A stretch of 64,000 bases of DNA, from the NCBI RefSeq assembly GCF_002097535.1, contig NZ_CP020772.1, positions 2,666,001-2,730,000 on the forward strand, read 5' to 3'. Under the pieces are notes generated by a model that searched no databases, was not told the origin of the DNA, and saw only the letters and a list, made by a program, of their open reading frames with translations. This stretch comes from Halobacillus mangrovi (lineage in GTDB: Bacteria > Bacillota > Bacilli > Bacillales > Halobacillaceae). Positions within the stretch are counted from its first letter, which is position 1, and the number at the start of each line of letters is the position of its first letter. Below, one piece after another: positions 10,120 to 47,894 of this stretch. The position numbers and the translations under genes were made by a program.

Positions 10120-10165
10120 TTGTTATCGAACAATTACGTGATATAATACCGATAACATTCGGATA
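10120..10165 (+). promoter_or_regulatory. xpt promoter with PurBox pair
   Basis: A -10 TATAAT (10142-10147) and a weak -35 TTGTTA (10120-10125) are spaced 16 bases apart. Inverted CGAA cores at 10127-10130 (TTATCGAACAAT) and 10158-10161 (TTCG in ACATTCGGAT) are 27 bases apart, the geometry of PurR PurBox pairs in Bacillus. PurR repression at initiation is inferred. Confidence 0.7.
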
Positions 10166-10170
10166 TAGTT

Positions 10171-10237
10171 TTCATATAATAGCAGGAATATGGCCTGCAA
10201 GTCTCTACCGGCTTACCGTAAATGAGCCGACTATGAA
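10171..10237 (+). promoter_or_regulatory. guanine-class purine riboswitch aptamer
   Basis: The conserved purine aptamer core is present in order: CATATAATAGCAGG, AATATGG, GTCTCTACC, GGCT-ACCGTAAAT-AGCC and GACTATG. P1 is TTCATA/TATGAA. The C in GACTATG (position 74 in the xpt numbering) marks guanine/hypoxanthine rather than adenine specificity. It sits upstream of a terminator and xpt-pbuX, as in B. subtilis. Confidence 0.95.
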
Positions 10238-10303
10238 AAGCAGTTTGATGATGAAACCCCCTGTGTATAGGTGGTCTTTTGTCATTTCTTTTGTGTTTTC
10301 CAA

Positions 10304-12380: not shown

Positions 12381-12574
12381 GGGTGTGGATGGGAAACGTC
12401 GAGACTCCCGCGGGAGAAGGAGCTAGGCGAGACACCGCAGGGAGCGCAGCGAGGGAGGAGGCTTGCCAGTTCCCCCGCAGGAAAGCGAGTCGTTTAACAG
12501 CCACCACCAAACCTCTACAATGTGAACGAACCTAGTTATCTTGAAGTCGAGTGTTCCAGATCACTGCTATATTC
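12381..12574 (+). repeat. solo foldback module with one composite end
   Basis: A single forward A-type module (GGATGGGAAACG...GTCGTTTAACAGCC) carries the internal GAGACTCCCGCGGGAGAAGG and GGAGGCTTGCCAG signature. Its right flank (CTTGAAGTCGAG...ACTGCTATA) is the inverse of the left outer end of the three composite copies. It therefore looks like a partial or internally deleted copy lying between pbuX and lysDH. Confidence 0.7.
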
Positions 12575-12632: not shown

Positions 12633-13787
12633 TTACTTTCTTGTGAATGTTTCTGAGATCACTACTCCACGTTTTGCCATTTCCCCGATATAAATATCTC
12701 CTGGCACAATTTGTTCAGGAGGGCAAACTCCACGCTTGGTGATCGTTTGATGACCAATCAACTGGGCAACAACAGAGATGGTGTTAGCCGTCGCGCGGGC
12801 CATAGCGGTAACTTGATTCTCTCGGTCTTTGTATGTGATCATCTCATATTGATAGGTAGTCTCTTTACCGTCTTGCTTTCCTCCAACTTCCACACGCAGA
12901 AGAACGACATCGTCTTTATCCTTTAGATCTACAATTGGATCAATCGTTTTTAATAAAACTTCACGTGTTTTCACTTTCGTTCCATTCACTTCTACTTCAT
13001 AGTCGCTTCCGGTCAAATTAAGATCTACTAAAAGCTTCATTTTTTCTGCATGACCTGGATAGCGAATGGTCTTATACTCTAAAGTATCGATATCTGGATA
13101 GGACTTCAGTAAAGTAGAAGTTCCTCCAGATGTATGAAAAGCCTCAAGGGGGCCGAACCGTTCAAAGTAGAGCGGTTCAAGTTCTGTCAACGATGTCACT
13201 TCCTGTAGCTTTCCGTTTCTAATAATGGTTGATGGATCTGTATAGTGATCCAATAAGCCTTCCATTGAAAAGACGTGGTTGTATTCAATCGGAGGCTCTG
13301 GCTTAACCGGAATCCCTCCGACAAATAACCGGATAGAGTGTAGATGATCGAGCTTACTAGCGCCATATCCAGCTAGTATATTGATCATTCCTGGTGCTAC
13401 CCCAAGGTCAGGAATCACAGTCACCCCGGCTGCTTTAGCACCTTCATCGTGCTCTAGCACTTTGTCCGTGATATGACCAATGTGACCACCGAGATCGACG
13501 GAATGCACTCCAACTGAAATCGCTGTTTTAGCAACAATTTCATTAAATGAGTAAAATAAGGCATTGATGACAACATCAAAATTCTGAATAAACCCAGCCA
13601 ATGCCTGCGTGTCCCCCGCGTCTACCTGATAGGCTTGAATCTTAGGGGAATGCAGTGATTGACAGACCGCCTGGGCTCTTGTCAGGTCGATATCTGCTAG
13701 TCCGACCTTCTCCACTCCTCGGCTATGGACTAAATCTCGTGCCGCTTCTTTTCCCATCAATCCAGACCCTAGAACAGCTACTTTCAT
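12633..13787 (-). CDS. lysDH: L-lysine 6-dehydrogenase (saccharopine dehydrogenase-like fold)
   Basis: This 384-aa NAD-dependent enzyme is predicted to oxidise L-lysine at the epsilon amino group to 2-aminoadipate 6-semialdehyde. It has an N-terminal Rossmann fold ([16 protein letters not shown]) and the blocks [38 protein letters not shown] and [12 protein letters not shown]. These match Geobacillus stearothermophilus LysDH as I recall it, at essentially the same length. The start is ATG 13787, because a GTG three codons earlier sits against the GAGAGG site. It is the last gene of a four-gene minus-strand operon with an ALDH, a ThDP enzyme and an aminotransferase, 36 bases after the ALDH stop. 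Confidence 0.88.
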
Positions 13788-13823
13788 CGTCTGCACTTCC
13801 TCTCCCTTGGATTACATAAGCCT

Positions 13824-15329
13824 CTACTCCACATCAATTTGGGCCCGCTGAAGTTTCCCGCTAAAATCTACGTATATGGATTTCCATTCAGTAAACACAT
13901 CCAGCGCTGCCAATCCGGAATCCCGGTGTCCGTTCCCGGTTCCTTTTGTACCTCCAAATGGCAGGTGGATTTCCGCCCCTGTCGTCCCTGCGTTTACATA
14001 AACAATTCCTGTGTCTAAATCACGCTGTGCCTGGAACACTTTATTGACGTCACGTGTAAATATCGAACTGGATAGTCCATACTCCACGCTATTATTGATT
14101 TCAATCGCTTCTTCCAAACTTTTAATAGGAATCAGAGAAACGACTGGTCCAAAGATCTCTTCCTTTGCAATCCGCATATCAGGAGATACATCCGTAAATA
14201 GGGTTGGAGCGAAGTAATGACCTTTGGCAAAAGCTCCATTCTCCATAATGTAACCGCCTGCTAAAAGCTTGGCTCCCTCATTTCTTCCAATTTGGATATA
14301 GCTTTTTATTTTATCTAGCCCGCCTTGATTAATAATGGGTCCTACTTTAATTGATTCATCTAGTCCATTACCAATAGAAAGCTTGGCCATCTCATTCAGT
14401 AAGCGCTCTTCTAGTTGATTCTTCAAACTCTCATGGACCATCACTCGGCTGCACGCTGTACAGCGCTGACCGCTTGTCCCGAACGCACTCCATAAAATCC
14501 CCTCTACGGCCAGGGTTAGATCGGCATCATCCATCACGATGACGGCATTCTTTCCACCCATTTCTAAGGAGACCTTTTTCAGTTTCTCCCCACACTTAGA
14601 TGCAATTCTGCGGCCAACGTTGTTAGACCCAGTGAATGAAATGACGCGAATATCATCTTGCTCGATCATCGCTTCCCCAACGCCCGAACCTGAACCGAAT
14701 ACAACATTGATGACCCCGTTTGGAAGTCCTGCTTCTTCAAAAATTTTCGCAAGTTCAAACGCCATGATCGGCGTTTCTGTTGCCGGTTTCCAAACGACTG
14801 CATTTCCCGCTACAATGGCAGGGAATGATTTCCACGTTGCGATCGCAATCGGGAAGTTCCATGGTGTAATGATTCCGACAACCCCAACTGGGGCCCTTAC
14901 ACTCATGGCAAATTTATCTTTCAACTCAGAAGGAGTGGTCTGTCCAAACAGTCTTCGTCCTTCCCCGGCCATATAGAAAGCCATGTCTATACCCTCTTGG
15001 ACTTCACCACGAGCTTCTTCAATCACCTTTCCGTTCTCCATCGTCAACAGTTGGGCGAGATGCTCTTTTCTATCCTTCATAATCAGTCCTACTCGGTAAA
15101 GCACTTCCGCACGCTGCGGTGCCGGCACGAGAGCCCATCTCTTTTGAGCTTTTTTCGCTGATTCTGTGGCAGATTCCACATCTTCCTTATTGGATAATGG
15201 AACTTGGACGAGCGTTTCTTTATTGGCAGGGTTTTTTACCGCCGTGAACTTTTCTGTAGAAGGCTCTACCCATTCCCCATTAATAAAATTGAGAAGTTTT
15301 TCTTGTTTCATGAGCTTTTGATTCATCAT
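13824..15329 (-). CDS. aldehyde dehydrogenase, probable 2-aminoadipate semialdehyde dehydrogenase
   Basis: This 501-aa NAD(P)-dependent ALDH has the Rossmann and coenzyme motif ITPWNFPIA, FTGSNNVGRRIA, catalytic Glu in LEMGGKNAVIV and catalytic Cys in GTSGQRCTACSR. The C-terminal TGAEIHLPFGGTKGTGNGHR is distinctive but is not the ALDH7 (AmaB) ending. Set between LysDH and the ThDP enzyme, it most plausibly oxidises 2-aminoadipate semialdehyde and possibly also glutarate semialdehyde. The family alone would allow other aldehydes. Two adjacent ATGs follow AAGGAGG; the first is used. Confidence 0.85.
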   Translation of the reverse strand: MMNQKLMKQEKLLNFINGEWVEPSTEKFTAVKNPANKETLVQVPLSNKEDVESATESAKKAQKRWALVPAPQRAEVLYRVGLIMKDRKEHLAQLLTMENGKVIEEARGEVQEGIDMAFYMAGEGRRLFGQTTPSELKDKFAMSVRAPVGVVGIITPWNFPIAIATWKSFPAIVAGNAVVWKPATETPIMAFELAKIFEEAGLPNGVINVVFGSGSGVGEAMIEQDDIRVISFTGSNNVGRRIASKCGEKLKKVSLEMGGKNAVIVMDDADLTLAVEGILWSAFGTSGQRCTACSRVMVHESLKNQLEERLLNEMAKLSIGNGLDESIKVGPIINQGGLDKIKSYIQIGRNEGAKLLAGGYIMENGAFAKGHYFAPTLFTDVSPDMRIAKEEIFGPVVSLIPIKSLEEAIEINNSVEYGLSSSIFTRDVNKVFQAQRDLDTGIVYVNAGTTGAEIHLPFGGTKGTGNGHRDSGLAALDVFTEWKSIYVDFSGKLQRAQIDVE

Positions 15330-15348
15330 CCATGTCCTCCTTGATCAC

Positions 15349-16983
15349 TTATTTGTTATAGCGCGCTCTCACCTGCTGGATCGTCGATGTCACTGAAATC
15401 TGCTCTCGATCCATTTCTACTTCAATGAGCACAGGTTTATCTAGCCCCAACGCTTCGTCAAGCGCCTGTTCAAATTCTGCCGGCCGTTTAACAAAATAAC
15501 TTTTTGTCCCTAAGCTCTCAGCGATCGTAGAAAAAGGGACATCACCTAAGTCCGTGCCGATCGTTTTATACGGATAATGCATTTCTTGGTGCATTCGAAT
15601 CGTTCCATACATCCGATTGTTGAACACGATACTAATAACGGGAATCTCATATCTGACGGCTGTTTCGAATTCCTGCATCGTCATCATGAAGCCGCCATCT
15701 CCGGATAAAGAAACGACTGTGCGATTAGGTTGAGCAAGCTTTGCTCCAAGAGCTGCAGGCATTCCGTAGCCCATCGCTCCTGAGGTTGGACCAATATATG
15801 TGTTTCGTTCATTAAACTGATAAAACGCATGAAGCCACCCAGCGAAATTGCCTGCATCATTCGTAAGGATGGCACCTTCCGGCAGACGTTTTTGCAGAAT
15901 GGAAATCAATTGTTGGTTGACGGTTCCGTTTTCAATTAGCGTATCCTTATAAACTTGTCTTCTGGTCTCCATCCACTTCTGCCATCTAGGCCAAAGTTTC
16001 ATTGTTTGAAGGGCTTGGAGCGCTTCTTTTGCATCTGCAACAATGCCCAGGCCCGGAGCATAAACTTTTCCTAACGTTTCACTATCAATATCTATATGAA
16101 TGAGCGTTTGCTCTTTAGAAATTAGGGAGTAATCTTGAGTCGTCACTTCCGAAAGCCTTGTACCAATGGCAAGAATCGTGTCTGCTTCCTTAACCGTCTT
16201 CAATAAGTCGGCACGCATGCCCAATCCTAAGTGACCGACGTAGTGAGGATGATTATTTGGAAACACATCATGCCTCCGGAATGCCGCCATAACAGGTAAA
16301 CTGTATCTTTCCACGAAACGCTGCAATGCCGATTCCCCACCTGAACTTTTCACACCGCCACCGGCAATGACTATGGGCTTTTCTGCGTCCGCAAGCAAGG
16401 CTTCAGTTTGCAAAATCTCAGGTACAGAGGGCCTTGGCTTTGGTCGGATGACTTTCGGACCGAAATTCATCTCCGCCTCTTTCTTTAAGATATCTTCAGG
16501 TAGGGCAAGCACCACCGGTCCCGGCCGCCCGGTTTGTGCAATTCGCAATGCGCGCTGCATCAGCTCTGGGACTCTTGGAGGTTCACGAATTTCGGCTACC
16601 CATTTGGCAATCGGACGAAAGAACGCTTCCAGATCAACTTCCTGGAAACCTTCCCTGCCGCTGAAACTGCTATGGACTTGTCCTAACAAAACAACTAGTG
16701 GAGTGGAATCCTGGTAAGCGGTATGAACGCCGATGGCCAGATTGGATGCCCCAACACCTCTGGTCGCCATCACAACTCCAGGCTTTCCGCTCGCCTTCGC
16801 AAACCCTTCCGCCATAAAGGAGGCCCCGCCTTCATGACGTGCTGAAATGAGTTCAATCTCTGGTTCATTGCGAATAGCATCCATAACCGGAAGATAGCTT
16901 TCTCCCGGTACACAGAACACTTTTGAAATTCCTTCTAGCCTAAGAGATTCAACAATGGCCTGAGCACTAGTAAGTAATCTCAC
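15349..16983 (-). CDS. ThDP-dependent enzyme (acetolactate synthase-like), candidate 2-oxoadipate decarboxylase
   Basis: This 544-aa protein has the three-domain 2-oxoacid decarboxylase/ALS fold: an N-terminal Pyr domain with the catalytic Glu in ARHEGGASFMAEGFAKASG, a central domain, and a PP domain with the ThDP motif GDGGFMMTMQEF...FNN. ALS-type biosynthesis is unlikely because no regulatory subunit or ilv gene is nearby. Its place in a LysDH operon downstream of an aminotransferase suggests decarboxylation of 2-oxoadipate to glutarate semialdehyde; this substrate is an inference. The GTG start overlaps the aminotransferase stop by 4 bases, preceded by GGGAGGG. Confidence 0.8.
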   Translation of the reverse strand: MRLLTSAQAIVESLRLEGISKVFCVPGESYLPVMDAIRNEPEIELISARHEGGASFMAEGFAKASGKPGVVMATRGVGASNLAIGVHTAYQDSTPLVVLLGQVHSSFSGREGFQEVDLEAFFRPIAKWVAEIREPPRVPELMQRALRIAQTGRPGPVVLALPEDILKKEAEMNFGPKVIRPKPRPSVPEILQTEALLADAEKPIVIAGGGVKSSGGESALQRFVERYSLPVMAAFRRHDVFPNNHPHYVGHLGLGMRADLLKTVKEADTILAIGTRLSEVTTQDYSLISKEQTLIHIDIDSETLGKVYAPGLGIVADAKEALQALQTMKLWPRWQKWMETRRQVYKDTLIENGTVNQQLISILQKRLPEGAILTNDAGNFAGWLHAFYQFNERNTYIGPTSGAMGYGMPAALGAKLAQPNRTVVSLSGDGGFMMTMQEFETAVRYEIPVISIVFNNRMYGTIRMHQEMHYPYKTIGTDLGDVPFSTIAESLGTKSYFVKRPAEFEQALDEALGLDKPVLIEVEMDREQISVTSTIQQVRARYNK

Positions 16984-18158
16984 TCCACAGTCCCTCCCTT
17001 CCGAATATTTTTCATACGTTCAACTGCTTCATTTAATCTTTCCGTTGGCACAGATAAGGATATCCGGATGTACCCTTCCCCTCTCTGTCCGAAGGCCGTC
17101 CCAGGTGTTACGATGACACCCGCATGATCGAGCACATATTCAGCAAAGCTTTGCGATGTATAGCCATCTGGAACTTTAGCCCATAGAAAGAACGTTCCTT
17201 TTGTTTTTTTCGCTTCCATCCCAATTTCCTGCAATGCAGGTAATACTGTTTCCATTCGTTTTTGATAAATCTCATTATTATAGCTAACCGATGAAAAATC
17301 GCTATTCAAAGCTGTCACTCCAGCTTTTTGAATCGCAAGAAACTGACTCGTATCCGTGTTGCTCTTCACGATGGATAAGGCACGAATCAAGTCCTCATTC
17401 CCAACCACATACCCGATTCTCCATCCCGTCATATTAAAACTCTTGGATAACGACCCAAATTCTACTCCAATGTCTTTAGCTCCTGGTACTTGTAAAAGAC
17501 TTGGAGATTCATAGCCTCTGAACGTGACTAAATCATAGGCCGCATCATGAGCGATACAAAGCTGGTTATTCCTCGCAAATTCCACCGTTTCTGTAAATGT
17601 CTCCAGTTCAACGGTTGCTCCGGTAGGATTGTTCGGATAGTTTAATATCAACAGCTTGGCCTGTTTTGTGTCAGCATCAGAGATTTTTTCGAAGGCAGGC
17701 ACATATCCTCTTGTCTCATCCAATGGAAAAGGAAGACTTTGGCCGTGAGCCAAGTGAACAGCCGATTGATAGACCGGATAGCCAGGATCAGGCAGCAATA
17801 CGCCATCTCCAGGATTAATCACAGCTTGAATCAGGTGGGCAATCCCTTCTTTTGAACCAATTAATGTCAACACTTCAGTATCAGGGTCCAGCTCTACCTG
17901 GTAATTTTTTTGATAAAAAGAAGCAACCGCTTCTCTGAATTCCTGACAACCTCCATAAGGGGAATATTTATGATTTCCACCGTTTTTGGCTTCTGCTATT
18001 AATCGCTCGATAATAAAAGATGGTGTCGGCAAGTCCGGTGCACCAATCCCTAAATCGATGACATCGATGCCTTGCTCTTCTAGCTTCTTCTTTTTTTGAT
18101 GAAAAATAGAAAACAGATAAGGAGGTAAGCTTTTTACACGTTCTGAACCATAGATCAT
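16980..18158 (-). CDS. PLP aminotransferase class I/II, candidate 2-aminoadipate aminotransferase
   Basis: This 392-aa fold-type I aminotransferase has the PLP lysine in SLSKSFNMTGWRIGY, NYPNNPTGA, and C-terminal arginine RISLSVP for carboxylate binding. The N-terminal IDLGIGAPDLPTP block resembles LL-diaminopimelate aminotransferase-like enzymes, but dapL would be redundant in a Bacillus. As first gene of the LysDH operon it is best read as removing the alpha-amino group of 2-aminoadipate. The pathway role is inferred from context. It is divergent from the CoA-transferase gene across a 296-base control region. Confidence 0.82.
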   Translation of the reverse strand: MIYGSERVKSLPPYLFSIFHQKKKKLEEQGIDVIDLGIGAPDLPTPSFIIERLIAEAKNGGNHKYSPYGGCQEFREAVASFYQKNYQVELDPDTEVLTLIGSKEGIAHLIQAVINPGDGVLLPDPGYPVYQSAVHLAHGQSLPFPLDETRGYVPAFEKISDADTKQAKLLILNYPNNPTGATVELETFTETVEFARNNQLCIAHDAAYDLVTFRGYESPSLLQVPGAKDIGVEFGSLSKSFNMTGWRIGYVVGNEDLIRALSIVKSNTDTSQFLAIQKAGVTALNSDFSSVSYNNEIYQKRMETVLPALQEIGMEAKKTKGTFFLWAKVPDGYTSQSFAEYVLDHAGVIVTPGTAFGQRGEGYIRISLSVPTERLNEAVERMKNIRKGGTVE

Positions 18159-18270
18159 CTTTTTGACCCCCGAATCATTGAGAGTTATTTAGGAGGCTCT
18201 ATTCAGTTTGAGAGCTTCAGCTCTTTCACATGGATTGCCTACTGTTACATCCTATTAAAAAAAAATGGGT

Positions 18271-18297
18271 TTATGATTGATCATTTCATAATCATAA
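18271..18297. promoter_or_regulatory. inverted repeat in the divergent control region
   Basis: TTATGATT and AATCATAA form an 8-bp inverted repeat separated by 11 bases, midway between the two divergent operons. It could be an operator shared by both, but no regulator gene is adjacent. Confidence 0.4.
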
Positions 18298-18385
18298 ATT
18301 CTATCCATTATCTATAAAATGTAATGTAACTCAAAACTATGAGGACAGACCCTATGCCTCTACTCCAATCAATCTAGTAGATCCC

Positions 18386-18429
18386 AAGCCAGCTGGATTC
18401 ATACGTCGTATGGGTTCTGCTGGCTTTTT
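18386..18429 (+). terminator. hairpin terminator upstream of the CoA-transferase gene (possible attenuator)
   Basis: AAGCCAGC pairs with GCTGGCTT, with an inner CATACG/CGTATG stem, and is followed by TTTTT. No plus-strand gene lies upstream, so it would stop a transcript before the GTG at 18455. That arrangement is typical of leader attenuation. Confidence 0.65.
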
Positions 18430-18454
18430 CCTATACAGAAAGGATGTGATCAAT

Positions 18455-19642
18455 GTGACAGCTGCCTTAGAAGGAATCCGGGTACTTGATTTGACTAGAG
18501 TGCTCGCAGGTCCATATTGTTCGATGATTATGGGTGACTTAGGAGCTGAAGTCATTAAAGTGGAAGCTCCAGGTGGAAGTGATGATACAAGAAAATGGGG
18601 GCCGCCTTTTCAGGAGGGGGTCAGTGCTTATTATTTATGTGCGAATCGTAATAAGAAGAGTTTGACCATCAATTTGAAAAGTGAAGATGGGAAAGACATT
18701 ATAAAAAAACTGGTAAAGCAAAGTGACGTTATCCTACACAACTTCAAAACCGGAACTATGGAACGTCTTGGACTTGGTTACGACACGTTAAGTGAGATAA
18801 ACCCTGGACTTGTGTACTGTTCCATTACCGGTTTTGGTGAGACGGGCCCATACAAACATCTTCCTGGCTATGATTTTATTATCCAGGCGATGAGCGGGCT
18901 GATGAGCATTACAGGCGATGCTGAGTCGGGCCCACAAAAATTAGGGGTTGCCATCACGGATATCTTGACCGGTTTGTATGCATGTATTGGTGTTCAGGCT
19001 GCCCTGTTAGAAAAGGGACAATCGGGGAAAGGACAGAAGATTGACCTTTCCTTATATGACTCGGCTGTAAGTTCGCTTATTAATATTGGCAGCAACTTTC
19101 TAATGACAGGACAAGTACCAGAACGATTAGGTAATCATCACGCAAATATCGTCCCTTACCAGACTTTTCGGTCCAGCGATGGCGAAATGGTCATTGCTGT
19201 AGGAAATGACCATCAATTTGCCGCGCTCTGCCAGGTCATCAACCAGACCCACTTGATATTTGATACAAGGTTCCGGACCAACCCTGAGCGGGTCGAAAAC
19301 AGAGAAGAACTGACAAAAGTATTGCAAAGCGCTTTTTCTAAGGAAAATACAGCGTTCTGGCAGGAAAAATGCCAAAAGGCCAATATTCCGTTCGGACCGA
19401 TCCAGACGTTGAAAGATGTAGAGAACGATGATCATTTAAAAGCCCGTGAAATGTTCGTCTCTGCAGACCATCCGAAAGCAGGACGCGTCAAAATGATTGG
19501 CAGTCCTTTGAAACTTTCACGCACACCGGCTCGAGTGAAGCACCATCCTCCTGAACCAGGTGAACATACAGAAGAAGTTCTGCAGGCTTTGGGGTACACC
19601 CGAACCCATATTGAAAAACTGAGAGATTCAAAAACGATTTGA
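18455..19642 (+). CDS. class III CoA-transferase, probable succinyl-CoA:glutarate CoA-transferase
   Basis: This 395-aa CaiB/BaiF-family enzyme begins ALEGIRVLDLTRVLAGPYC and has the catalytic Asp in PGYDFIIQAMSGLM. Within the family, the blocks DDTRKWGPPF, NRNKKSLTINLK and VPYQTF closely parallel human SUGCT (glutarate CoA-transferase) as I recall it. GTG 18455 follows AAAGGATGTGATC; no better start exists. The next gene, an acyl-CoA dehydrogenase, starts 11 bases after its stop. Together they would convert glutarate to glutaryl-CoA and then to crotonyl-CoA. Confidence 0.85.
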   Translation: MTAALEGIRVLDLTRVLAGPYCSMIMGDLGAEVIKVEAPGGSDDTRKWGPPFQEGVSAYYLCANRNKKSLTINLKSEDGKDIIKKLVKQSDVILHNFKTGTMERLGLGYDTLSEINPGLVYCSITGFGETGPYKHLPGYDFIIQAMSGLMSITGDAESGPQKLGVAITDILTGLYACIGVQAALLEKGQSGKGQKIDLSLYDSAVSSLINIGSNFLMTGQVPERLGNHHANIVPYQTFRSSDGEMVIAVGNDHQFAALCQVINQTHLIFDTRFRTNPERVENREELTKVLQSAFSKENTAFWQEKCQKANIPFGPIQTLKDVENDDHLKAREMFVSADHPKAGRVKMIGSPLKLSRTPARVKHHPPEPGEHTEEVLQALGYTRTHIEKLRDSKTI

Positions 19643-19653
19643 GGAGGGTTTTT

Positions 19654-20841
19654 ATGAATTTTGAATTTAGTGATGAACAAGTCATGCTGAGGAAAACAGT
19701 AAGAGATTTCGTAGATAAAGAGATTATGCCTTATATTGGTGAGTGGGATTCTAAAGGACATTTTGAAACGAGTATATTTATAAAGCTGGCCGACCTCGGT
19801 CTAATGGGTGTATGTATACCAACAGAATATGGCGGCAGCGGAATGGATTACAATGCGTTAGCGATCGTTTGTGAGGAGCTAGAACGTGGCGATACGGCTT
19901 TTCGAACAGCTGTATCTGTCCATACGGGATTGAACAGTATGTCGCTCTTGCAGTGGGGAACAGAAGAACAGAAGCAAAAATATTTGGTTCCACAAGCAAA
20001 AGGAGAAAAAGTTGGCGCATTTGGACTGACCGAACCAGGAGCAGGATCTGATGTAGCTGCCCTACAATCTACGGCAAGGCTTGAAGGTGACTATTATATC
20101 CTCAACGGGCAAAAAACTTGGATCTCTCTATGTGACGCGGCGGATCATTTTCTCGTCTTCGCTTATACGAATAAAAACAAAAAGCATCACGGAATCTCAG
20201 CGTTTATTGTTGAAAGGAATATGCCTGGATTCTCATCTAAAGCAACTAAAGGAAAGCTTGGGATTCGGGCGGGGAATACGGGGGAACTATTTTTTGACGG
20301 CGTAAAAGTACCTAAGGAAAACCTTCTCGGCAAAGAGGGGGATGGGTTTAAAATCGCCATGGCTTCGTTGGACAATGGCCGCTTCACCGTCGCTGCAGGA
20401 GCCTGCGGACAGATTATGGCCTGTCTGGAAGCGAGTGTTGCCTACTGCCATGAACGAAAAACGTTTGGTAAAGAAATCGGCAGGCACCAACTCGTCCAGC
20501 AGATGGTCGCAAAGATGGAAGCTGGCCTTCAGATGAGTCGGCTGCTTGTTTACCGAGCAGGTGAACTGAAGAATGAAGGGAAACGAAATACTAGGGAAAC
20601 ATCGCTGGCGAAATGGCAGGCGTGTGATTTTGCGAATCAAGCTGCTGATGATGCGGTACAAATTCACGGGGCGTATGGGTATTCGAATGAATATCCAGTT
20701 GAGCGTTATTTAAGGAATTCGAAGGCGCCTGTCATTTACGAAGGAACGCGGGAGATCCATACGATCATGCAGGCGGAGTATGTGCTTGGTTATCGAAAAG
20801 ATAAGGCTTTGAATAAGATGCTTCCTCCTTGGAAGAGTTGA
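19654..20841 (+). CDS. acyl-CoA dehydrogenase, probable glutaryl-CoA dehydrogenase
   Basis: This 395-aa FAD enzyme has the signatures GAFGLTEPGAGSD, KTWISLCDAADHF and the catalytic base in VIYEGTREIHTIMQAEY. Arg84 in DTAFRTAVSVHTG aligns with the Arg of YRSAMSVQSS in human glutaryl-CoA dehydrogenase, the residue that contacts the distal carboxylate of the substrate. ATG 19654 follows GAGGAGG; the TTG at 19639 is within the ribosome site. It is co-transcribed with the CoA-transferase and ends in a strong terminator. Ordinary short-chain acyl-CoA dehydrogenase is the alternative. Confidence 0.82.
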   Translation: MNFEFSDEQVMLRKTVRDFVDKEIMPYIGEWDSKGHFETSIFIKLADLGLMGVCIPTEYGGSGMDYNALAIVCEELERGDTAFRTAVSVHTGLNSMSLLQWGTEEQKQKYLVPQAKGEKVGAFGLTEPGAGSDVAALQSTARLEGDYYILNGQKTWISLCDAADHFLVFAYTNKNKKHHGISAFIVERNMPGFSSKATKGKLGIRAGNTGELFFDGVKVPKENLLGKEGDGFKIAMASLDNGRFTVAAGACGQIMACLEASVAYCHERKTFGKEIGRHQLVQQMVAKMEAGLQMSRLLVYRAGELKNEGKRNTRETSLAKWQACDFANQAADDAVQIHGAYGYSNEYPVERYLRNSKAPVIYEGTREIHTIMQAEYVLGYRKDKALNKMLPPWKS

Positions 20842-20924: not shown

Positions 20925-21396
20925 TATACCATGATAGCGGAAGAGTCGATTTCGAGAATGTTTAGGGGCGTTGGGGAAGGATTCGCTTTCCTGCGGGGAA
21001 CTGGCGAGCTTCCTCGGGCTTCGCCCTGTGGGATCTCGCCTCGCTCCTTCTCCCGCGGGAGTCTCCCCCCTCCCCAACGCCCCTTGCAAAATGAAGTTCG
21101 CGATATATTGCTACGTAGAATTTGCTATTAAATATCGGAAACAGGTGTAAATACTGAATTTCCTACATGAGCGCCTGTCCATGCTTCCTTTCAGATCAGA
21201 AAAGATCGTTTCGAGCATCTTTATCTCATATGGGGGATGGGAAAACGGCGAGACTCCTGTGGGATAACATGTTAGATGAGACCCCGGAAGACGTAAGTCT
21301 GAGGAGGCTCAACACATGCCCACGGAAAGCGAGTCGTTTCCCCATCCACCATCGCTCACACAAAAGTCCCGAAACTGAGTCTTCAGGATAAAGAGG
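20925..21396 (+). repeat. composite foldback element, copy 2 (about 472 bp)
   Basis: This copy has the same layout and orientation as copy 1: left end TATACCATGATAGCGG...GTCGATTTCGAG, reverse A module (20964-21084, 14-bp ends AGGGGCGTTGGGGA), spacer with TTGCTACGTAGAATTTGCTA, forward B module (21230-21352, ends ATGG...GGATGGGAAAACG), right end GTCTTCAGGATAAAGAGG. Spacer pieces are shared with copy 1, which shows that the whole unit, not only the hairpins, is repeated. Confidence 0.8.
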
Positions 21397-35850: not shown

Positions 35851-36264
35851 GGATATAGCAGGTCAGTAGAAGACTTATTTCGAGGTACTGTAAGCTTTCC
35901 GTTGCCATAAGTAGAATTTAGAGGTCCGAGAAATCACTCGCTTTCCGTGAGCATGTGCTGAGCCTCCTCGAGCTAAAGCTCTCCGGGGTCTCACCTATCA
36001 TGCTCTTCCCACAGGAGTCTCGCGATTTACCGGACCTCCTTCCTCCTGTTAAATGGAGCCGTTCATTACGCTACAGGTAGAGTGGATGGAAAACGGCGAG
36101 ACTCCCACGGGAGAAGGAGTTAGGCGAGACCCCACAGAGAGCGCAGCGAACGAGGAGGCTTGCCAGTTCTCCCGCAGGAAAGCGAGTTGTTTTCCAGCCA
36201 ACCTTATGCTTATTACGTAACGGTCCTGAGAATATCTCGAATTCAAGTCTTCAAAATAAAGAGG
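35851..36264 (-). repeat. composite foldback element, copy 3 (about 414 bp, inverted)
   Basis: The left end is GGATATAGCAGG...GAAGACTTATTTCGAG and the right end CTCGAATTCAAGTCTTC...AAAGAGG. Inside, a B-type module (about 35921-36038, ends GAGGTCCG/CGGACCTC) reads in reverse and an A-type module (about 36081-36202) reads forward. Relative to copies 1 and 2 this is the whole element in opposite orientation. The two outer ends are inverse copies of each other over about 15 bases. Confidence 0.75.
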
Positions 36265-47672: not shown

Positions 47673-47685
47673 AACCATCAAAATA

Positions 47686-47770
47686 GCCACCATCCCTACG
47701 CCAGTGCTAACTGACAGGTTCGAAGGGTCTGAACCGCATTCACTCTCAGCCGGAAGGCTCCCCTTGAAGG
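47686..47770 (-). promoter_or_regulatory. TPP riboswitch (THI box)
   Basis: On the minus strand it shows AGGGGAGCC, GGCTGAGAGTG, CAGACCCTTCGAACCTG, TCAGTTAGCACTGGCG and TAGGGATGG, the conserved TPP aptamer segments in order. It controls thiT. Confidence 0.95.
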
Positions 47771-47894
47771 CTTTATACCGCTTGCTTTTCTTGATTTGTC
47801 TTCTATTATAGTAAAAAAAGAAGGAGAATACAAAAATTTTTATTGCCCGGGAAATCCCCCTATGAAGGGGTTTTACCTTCAGGGCTCACGCATA

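Follow-up and report, generated by a model that had tools for sequence, protein, structure and literature searches.

A candidate thiamine-diphosphate-dependent route from lysine to crotonyl-CoA in Halobacillus mangrovi and its relatives, with a leader RNA common to two glutarate operons

Two neighbouring operons of Halobacillus mangrovi probably encode a route of lysine catabolism that passes through 2-oxoadipate and ends at crotonyl-CoA, with a thiamine-diphosphate-dependent (ThDP) enzyme yielding glutarate semialdehyde; the second operon is probably subject to transcription attenuation. They lie at positions 12633-20841 of the window, the 64,000-nucleotide stretch analysed here (contig NZ_CP020772.1, positions 2,666,001 to 2,730,000, forward strand), whose source genome is a single contig of 4.14 Mb. 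The region is taken up by six long open reading frames (ORFs), four on the minus strand facing two on the plus strand. The ORF list and the family assignments agree with the six genes that an earlier note on this DNA had placed there.

In the proposed scheme, L-lysine 6-dehydrogenase (LysDH) would remove the C6 amino group of lysine, giving aminoadipate semialdehyde, which an aldehyde dehydrogenase (ALDH1) would oxidise to 2-aminoadipate. An aminotransferase (AT) would convert 2-aminoadipate to 2-oxoadipate, and the ThDP enzyme would decarboxylate the latter to glutarate semialdehyde without CoA. A separate GabD/DavD-like aldehyde dehydrogenase, whose gene lies beside that of an acyl-CoA dehydrogenase (ACAD) in many relatives, would produce glutarate. 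Glutarate and succinyl-CoA would then form glutaryl-CoA through a CoA-transferase (CoAT), and ACAD would oxidise and decarboxylate glutaryl-CoA to crotonyl-CoA. Neither a LysDH-ThDP operon nor a ThDP-dependent 2-oxoadipate decarboxylase was recognised among the papers listed in literature searches, most subscription journals being outside their coverage.

The first and last enzymes of the scheme carry the clearest residue signatures. LysDH (12633..13787, minus strand) has its first ATG at 13787, the ORF opening with a GTG at 13796. It contains saccharopine dehydrogenase domains (Pfam), its best PDB match is 3abi, and its nearest named relatives in a search of related genomes belong to Halobacillus. 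An engineering study of the Geobacillus stearothermophilus enzyme LysEDH names V130, V172, F173, H181, Y238, T240 and R242 (PMC6697735, extract). All seven active-site residues occur at identical numbers in the window enzyme, and none of them varies among the 81 sequences aligned; the likeness to the G. stearothermophilus L-lysine 6-dehydrogenase consists of these residues and numbers, compared via the positions named in that paper. LysDH is thus predicted to turn lysine into 2-aminoadipate 6-semialdehyde or piperideine-6-carboxylate. In two relatives the LysDH match is split into two pieces by different frames or a stop (G034:C1:2561176-2562314 and G015:C1:2535790-2536927), which may reflect gene decay or errors in sequencing.

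ACAD (19654..20841, plus strand; residues counted from codon 19657) belongs to the acyl-CoA dehydrogenase family and is the candidate decarboxylating glutaryl-CoA dehydrogenase (GCDH). In the GCDH of Burkholderia pseudomallei, Arg97 pairs with Tyr373 and contacts the substrate carboxylate (PMC3169403, extract). Arg83 of ACAD aligns with this Arg97. The arginine of GCDH (Arg94 in the human enzyme) and the tyrosine beside the catalytic glutamate with which it pairs have their counterparts in R83 and Y361-E362 of ACAD. Across the five alignments shown, the aligned arginine is present in two named glutaryl-CoA dehydrogenases and absent from three other acyl-CoA dehydrogenases. E76, which we take to correspond to human GCDH Glu87, is found together with R83 and Y361-E362 in 70 of 72 rows, both exceptions being a different acyl-CoA dehydrogenase. 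With the LysDH residues conserved in 81/81 sequences and the GCDH residues in 70/72, the lysine-to-crotonyl-CoA gene set proposed in the earlier note is supported. The H. mangrovi genome also holds a second GCDH-like paralogue (G000:C1:1318472-1319647, locus L139), which is 83% identical to ACAD, has the same Arg/Tyr-Glu set, and adjoins a likely Liv-type ABC transporter and another acyl-CoA dehydrogenase.

The enzymes between these two ends are assigned with less precision. ALDH1 (13824..15329, minus strand; Aldedh in Pfam), the putative aminoadipate-semialdehyde dehydrogenase, scores under the cut-off of every one of the 25 NCBIfam families among the matches listed. AT (16980..18158, minus strand; Aminotran_1_2), a class I/II aminotransferase and putative 2-aminoadipate transaminase, reaches the subfamily PRK09276 (523.1 bits against a cut-off of 507) and stays under the LL-diaminopimelate aminotransferase equivalog TIGR03540 (519.9 against 593). 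Its ORF overlaps that of the ThDP enzyme by four bases. CoAT (18455..19642, plus strand; CoA_transf_3), a family III CoA-transferase with a likely GTG start in an ORF opening at 18410, would be a succinyl-CoA:glutarate CoA-transferase. The best of its seven NCBIfam families is succinate--glutarate CoA-transferase (NF052585), and its best PDB match is 9br6, a succinate--hydroxymethylglutarate CoA-transferase.

The ThDP enzyme (15349..16983, minus strand) has three TPP_enzyme domains and exceeds the cut-off of the PRK08199 subfamily (739.7 bits against 539), whose description states no function. In the matches listed, which cover 25 of 59 families, it falls under the cut-offs of the remaining 24, those for acetohydroxyacid synthase (AHAS) included, the best such match being TIGR00118 with 430.7 against 538. 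The H. mangrovi genome has separate AHAS-like genes. The cofactor and catalytic motif (E51, G428-D429-G430, N455-N456) is invariant in 35 orthologues, and the residues invariant only within the ThDP clade include H251, H385, E217, W337 and E163. Its assignment as a 2-oxoadipate decarboxylase is the least certain step of the pathway and is inferred from gene context.

This gene context is well conserved. It was compared in 80 LysDH loci, the best 80 of 163 relatives, all of them near relatives with 71-82% identity to the window LysDH. AT, ThDP, ALDH and LysDH follow each other in this order on one strand in 59 of the 80, and in two more (L024, L080) the order is broken only by a short opposite-strand ORF. 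AT is followed by ThDP in 61/80 loci, and the CoAT-ACAD pair is present in 62/80 and accompanies the four-gene order in 53/80. Where LysDH and ThDP occur together (62 loci), 29 categories of neighbour flank the block per side, with a contig end counted as one. Because the flanking genes vary freely while the block persists, the linkage exceeds background synteny. A distant locus (L160) has all six genes in a rearranged order at 50-76% identity, and another (L161) places ThDP near CoAT-ACAD in a region without LysDH. An IclR-type gene occurs in 33/80 loci. In the converse direction, a PRK08199 search of 120 genomes of the order found the family in 20 of them and in none of 14 control genomes. 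Twenty PRK08199 regions other than that of the window, from 19 genomes, were sampled irrespective of LysDH, and LysDH is present in 13 of them; several of these regions end at contig ends.

Gene-neighbourhood comparison therefore sustains the conserved operon linkage on which the earlier note had relied, with 59/80 and 53/80 loci. The divergent two-operon layout it had described holds for Halobacillus and near kin and fails for most other loci, where CoAT-ACAD lies downstream of LysDH in opposite orientation. Its view that the ThDP enzyme stands where HglS would is in keeping with the absence of HglS (DUF1338, PF07063) from all 43 genomes searched, in which the positive controls Escherichia coli and Deinobacterium were matched. 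Its suggestion that one ALDH serves twice is unsupported, because many relatives have a second ALDH (ALDH2) beside ACAD, directly adjoining it in 29/80 loci. P0003, the ALDH2 of L022 and the one such protein scanned, exceeds the cut-off of the succinate semialdehyde dehydrogenase (SSADH) subfamily and is GabD/DavD-like. It has relatives in 37 of 43 genomes (search at E 1e-130). The cluster of the window is without ALDH2.

The patterns of gene loss fit two units, ALDH-LysDH on the one hand and ThDP with CoAT on the other, as the 2-oxoadipate scheme predicts. Twenty-three LysDH genomes were searched with ThDP and CoAT, an orthologue being a match of at least 60% identity. Both are present in nine genomes, neither in 11, CoAT alone in three, and ThDP alone in none. 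The corresponding Fisher value for joint absence (2.7e-4) is only a guide, since the genomes are related by descent and were picked partly for a LysDH locus without ThDP. Two of the 11 genomes with neither orthologue (G059, G070) have relatives of 44-55% identity. ALDH1 is kept with LysDH in six loci without AT and ThDP (L023, L042, L043, L046, L051, L055). L023, L046 and L051 have no ThDP orthologue genome-wide, AT-ThDP is located elsewhere for L042 and L043, and the only ThDP relative for L055 is at 52%. In L033 and L060, AT-ALDH-LysDH is found without ThDP. Of 27 genomes, 20 keep ACAD at 78% identity or more, and three of these 20 (G055, G060, G073) lack a CoAT match. The G055 ACAD clusters with the second paralogue of H. 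mangrovi in a tree (85/83) and may therefore be a different gene.

Several observations weigh against the proposed pathway. CoAT remains far under the NF052585 cut-off (432.6 against 750). ACAD stays under the glutaryl-CoA dehydrogenase equivalog NF045552 (380.7 against 470), has acryloyl-CoA reductase as its top score, and is overall closest to butyryl/acryloyl types. In both sequence and fold the ThDP enzyme resembles AHAS, and its model shows no 2-oxoadipate specificity. No glutarate semialdehyde dehydrogenase could be assigned in the window genome, because the only P0003 relatives there, elsewhere than at the cluster, match at just 56% and 53%. LysDH is missing from seven of the 20 ThDP regions, and CoAT occurs without a 60% ThDP orthologue in three genomes (G066, G075, G085), two of which (G075, G085) have a 47-49% ThDP adjoining an aminotransferase and an IclR gene. 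L060 retains ALDH2 and ACAD while ThDP and CoAT are absent genome-wide, a case that the scheme does not need. In L126, ThDP adjoins a GabT-like aminotransferase.

In an alternative explanation, the 2-oxoglutarate dehydrogenase complex would make glutaryl-CoA from 2-oxoadipate, the ThDP enzyme being a carboligase or acting on another substrate and CoAT-ACAD taking glutarate of other origin. The fold model of the ThDP enzyme (predicted local distance difference test, pLDDT, 91) has AHAS and the carboligase BbmA as its nearest folds, L038 and L060 keep ACAD close to LysDH in the absence of ThDP and CoAT, and the H. mangrovi genome also carries the glutarate hydroxylase gene GlaH, followed by an LhgO-like gene. 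This explanation is nevertheless unlikely, as ThDP is part of the LysDH operon at most of the 80 loci and tends to be absent jointly with CoAT, while the enzyme falls under the listed acetolactate synthase cut-offs in an organism with AHAS-like genes of its own.

A second alternative is modelled on AruH-AruI of Pseudomonas arginine catabolism, a transaminase and a 2-ketoarginine decarboxylase. AT would take the alpha-amino group of lysine, the ThDP enzyme would convert 2-oxo-6-aminohexanoate to 5-aminopentanal, ALDH would form 5-aminovalerate, and a transaminase route would lead to glutarate. The likeness lies in the pair of aminotransferase and ThDP decarboxylase, and the difference in the substrate and the first step. 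Such a route would suit the GabT-like gene of L126, the class III-looking aminotransferase that L021/L022 have between ALDH2 and ACAD and that matches the one of L126 at 29%, and the PRK08199-like paralogues in other loci (L128-L133). It leaves LysDH no role, however, and the loci that keep ALDH-LysDH without AT and ThDP, or AT-ALDH-LysDH without ThDP, also speak against it, so that it is improbable and stands slightly behind the explanation by the 2-oxoglutarate dehydrogenase complex. In Cytobacillus depressus (L128, 7852-12643), a single AT is bracketed by two genes of the ThDP subfamily (53% and 48%).

The decarboxylation by the ThDP enzyme would set the pathway apart from what has been described in Pseudomonas putida. 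In the D-lysine route of that organism, HglS (DUF1338) converts 2-oxoadipate to 2-hydroxyglutarate (PMC7286885, extract). Lysine catabolism would pass through 2-oxoadipate in both cases, but here HglS is absent from the 43 genomes and the operon holds a ThDP gene instead, linked to glutarate genes. P. putida has two parallel glutarate routes, gcdH-gcoT and csiD-lhgO, with the separate regulator proteins GcdR and CsiR (PMC6667623, extract). The gcdH-gcoT genes resemble CoAT-ACAD in pairing a CoA-transferase with a glutaryl-CoA dehydrogenase, csiD-lhgO being the parallel route. The regulators described there are proteins, whereas here a leader RNA is common to the CoAT and GlaH operons. GlaH/CsiD (PF08943) has matches in 15 of 43 genomes, 14 of them above the cut-off, including the window genome, and GlaH lies near CoAT-ACAD in L144 and L145.

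The CoAT leader of the window contains a terminator-like hairpin with a T-run (18386..18428, plus strand), which ends about 27 bases 5' of the GTG at 18455. The surrounding segment (18376-18440, plus strand) folds at -26 kcal/mol with a z of -4.06. The hairpin core GGATTCATACNNNGTATGGGTTC, searched with two mismatches allowed, occurs once per genome and without mismatch in 27 of 44 same-family genomes, and its reversed control in none. One related row swaps both sides of an outer hairpin pair, from C-G to U-A. A hairpin with the outer stem GCCAG...YTGGC is present in 44 of 62 CoAT leaders and in none of 63 AT leaders, and a further scan finds the hairpin in 48 of 63 CoAT leaders, that of the window among them. 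GCCAG hairpins in 1.49 Mb of loci number 46 within CoAT leaders against 14 at other places, which include eight antisense copies of the CoAT leader element and the ACAD leader of L060. For seven control stems over the same sequence, the sums are none within CoAT leaders and 20 outside them.

The scan also detected the element 5' of GlaH in the H. mangrovi genome. In a set of 14 GlaH leaders, from this genome and 13 others (two more GlaH copies of G070 are outside the set), each of two scans finds the hairpin in 12 and either scan in 13. One scan misses L212 and L213 and the other L212 and L216, so that L212 alone escapes both.

In many relatives, the terminator is preceded by a structured domain, and a conserved ACTG near the 5' end may pair with the 5' arm of the terminator as an antiterminator. 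The aligned leaders have CTG near the 5' end in 42 of 42 rows, followed by a P1 stem that encloses a P2 hairpin, and then the terminator. Examples of domain plus terminator are the CoAT leader of L079 (13069-13179) and the GlaH leader of L204 (1000-1097), both on the minus strand. Five whole leaders have fold z values of -6.5 to -8.8. In 30 CoAT leaders, 87.9% of the cells of 18 proposed pairs are paired, and changes on both sides occur in 55 cells, compared with 18.7 in shuffled alignments and 9-15 in slid controls; the comparison with the slid controls is biased towards the structure, which was derived from these very sequences. The number of pairs with a both-side change is less favourable to the structure, namely ten against 7.1 in shuffled alignments, with one slid control also reaching ten. 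Four of the ten pairs lie in P1, which is 94.8% paired, and six in P2, the weaker stem at 74.9%. In nine GlaH leaders taken alone, five pairs change on both sides, compared with 1.5 in shuffled alignments. Pairing reaches 98.3% for the proposed antiterminator (ACTG with CAGT), which is without covariation support because both motifs are nearly invariant.

A first model of the leader, R1, built from 20 Halobacillus-type leaders, gave 21 weak matches in 84 other sources, of which 16 precede CoAT, one precedes ACAD, three lie elsewhere, and the remaining one stands some 1.1 kb 5' of an ACAD paralogue. R1 was later replaced by R2, trained on 30 CoAT leaders only and run on 38 genomes at E 0.05. 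R2 has 21 matches, one per genome, directly 5' of CoAT (15), GlaH (5) or ACAD (1, in G073, where ACAD is now the first gene). Nine of these are training rows and twelve are not, the latter including all five GlaH matches. Seventeen of the 38 genomes, that of the window among them, are without a match. The GlaH leader of H. mangrovi reaches 22.7 bits with R2 (E 0.048, small search). The CoAT leader of the window has no two-stem domain upstream of its terminator, its best R2 sense score being 2.7 bits, and that of another Halobacillus locus (L004) scores 8.9 bits, with ACTG 5' of the terminator and no stems in the alignment shown. These Halobacillus CoAT leaders therefore keep the terminator without a recognisable two-stem domain.

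That the hairpin is merely the ordinary terminator of the upstream gene is highly improbable: that gene is co-directional or not known in 28 of 62 loci, and six of seven order-wide weak matches of R1 precede none of these genes, but a terminator-like hairpin is still there with a divergent neighbour, as in Halobacillus-type loci (26 of 34 CoAT leaders against one of 40 AT leaders), the leader of relatives carries a covarying two-stem domain, and all 21 R2 matches are confined to CoAT, GlaH or ACAD leaders.

Leaders with a terminator and an antiterminator are familiar in Bacillota as riboswitches, T-boxes and systems of the HutP/LicT type. The leader described here resembles them in its structured RNA, intrinsic terminator and possible competing antiterminator, and differs in its lack of an Rfam match at the gathering score. 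No Rfam 15 family attained that score in the window leader, in a CoAT leader or in six GlaH regions, the best sub-threshold cis-regulatory match being bglG-cis-reg with 27 bits against 80. The signal of the common leader would most simply be glutarate, the substrate of both routes, and its sensor either the RNA itself or a protein. A more specific proposal, put forward tentatively and with the balance somewhat against it, is that in Bacillaceae the leader common to CoAT-ACAD and GlaH forms a new riboswitch class which senses glutarate or a ligand like L-2-hydroxyglutarate, antiterminates both routes, and marks the free-glutarate branch of the ThDP-dependent 2-oxoadipate pathway. By placing CoAT-ACAD under the signal of the glutarate hydroxylase gene, the common leader also gives an independent argument that CoAT and ACAD work on glutarate.

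The same enzymes may have been put to use with another entry point. Two Oceanobacillus loci (L124, L125) have an extra AT-ThDP-ALDH set (63, 64 and 79-80% identity) with a DAO oxidase, an OCD/mu-crystallin gene and a CdaR-type regulator, identified by scan in L124 and by look in L125. This set is likely a pipecolate entry, in which lysine or piperideine-2-carboxylate would be converted via pipecolate to aminoadipate semialdehyde, an assignment opposed by the finding that none of the scanned OCD/DAO proteins exceeds a pipecolate-pathway cut-off. The second DAO/OCD/CdaR-type loci are located at 1037-10716 in L124, 4849-13190 in L125 and 14106-19096 in L060, with an SSS-type transporter, by look, in those of L060 and L125.

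Other features accompany the two operons. A GC-rich repeat, CGAGACTCCCGCGGGAGAAGGAGC, occurs in three copies with at most two mismatches at 12400-12423, 21043-21066 and 36097-36120 of the window and in no shuffled sequence; two of the copies flank the two operons. The Rfam scan of the window gave no lysine riboswitch or other element over the gathering score at the two operons. Over that score are a purine riboswitch (10152-10253, plus strand), which lies 5' of a likely phosphoribosyltransferase and permease gene pair, and a thiamine pyrophosphate (TPP) riboswitch (47676-47774, minus strand). A DUF3870 protein (L148, 10551-10856), whose model resembles IscU, is encoded in 37 of 80 LysDH loci and also with GlaH. 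In many loci of Virgibacillus, Lentibacillus and Ornithinibacillus, the AT operon has tryptophan catabolism genes (KynA, KynB and KynU by look) as divergent neighbours, and a KynU-like cluster is found in 18 of 80 loci (e.g. L019, L024, L058).

If the proposed pathway is correct, it would provide Bacillaceae with a genetic path for the use of lysine as a carbon source, in which a CoA-free decarboxylation of 2-oxoadipate replaces HglS or the 2-oxoglutarate dehydrogenase complex. It would also name a function for a PRK08199 clade, known in NCBIfam merely as "thiamine pyrophosphate protein". Through the leader RNA, a single control element is common to two glutarate operons that are not homologous, which makes a possible response of the RNA to glutarate directly testable. 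A glutarate-sensing RNA, should it prove to be one, would be useful for glutarate biotechnology.

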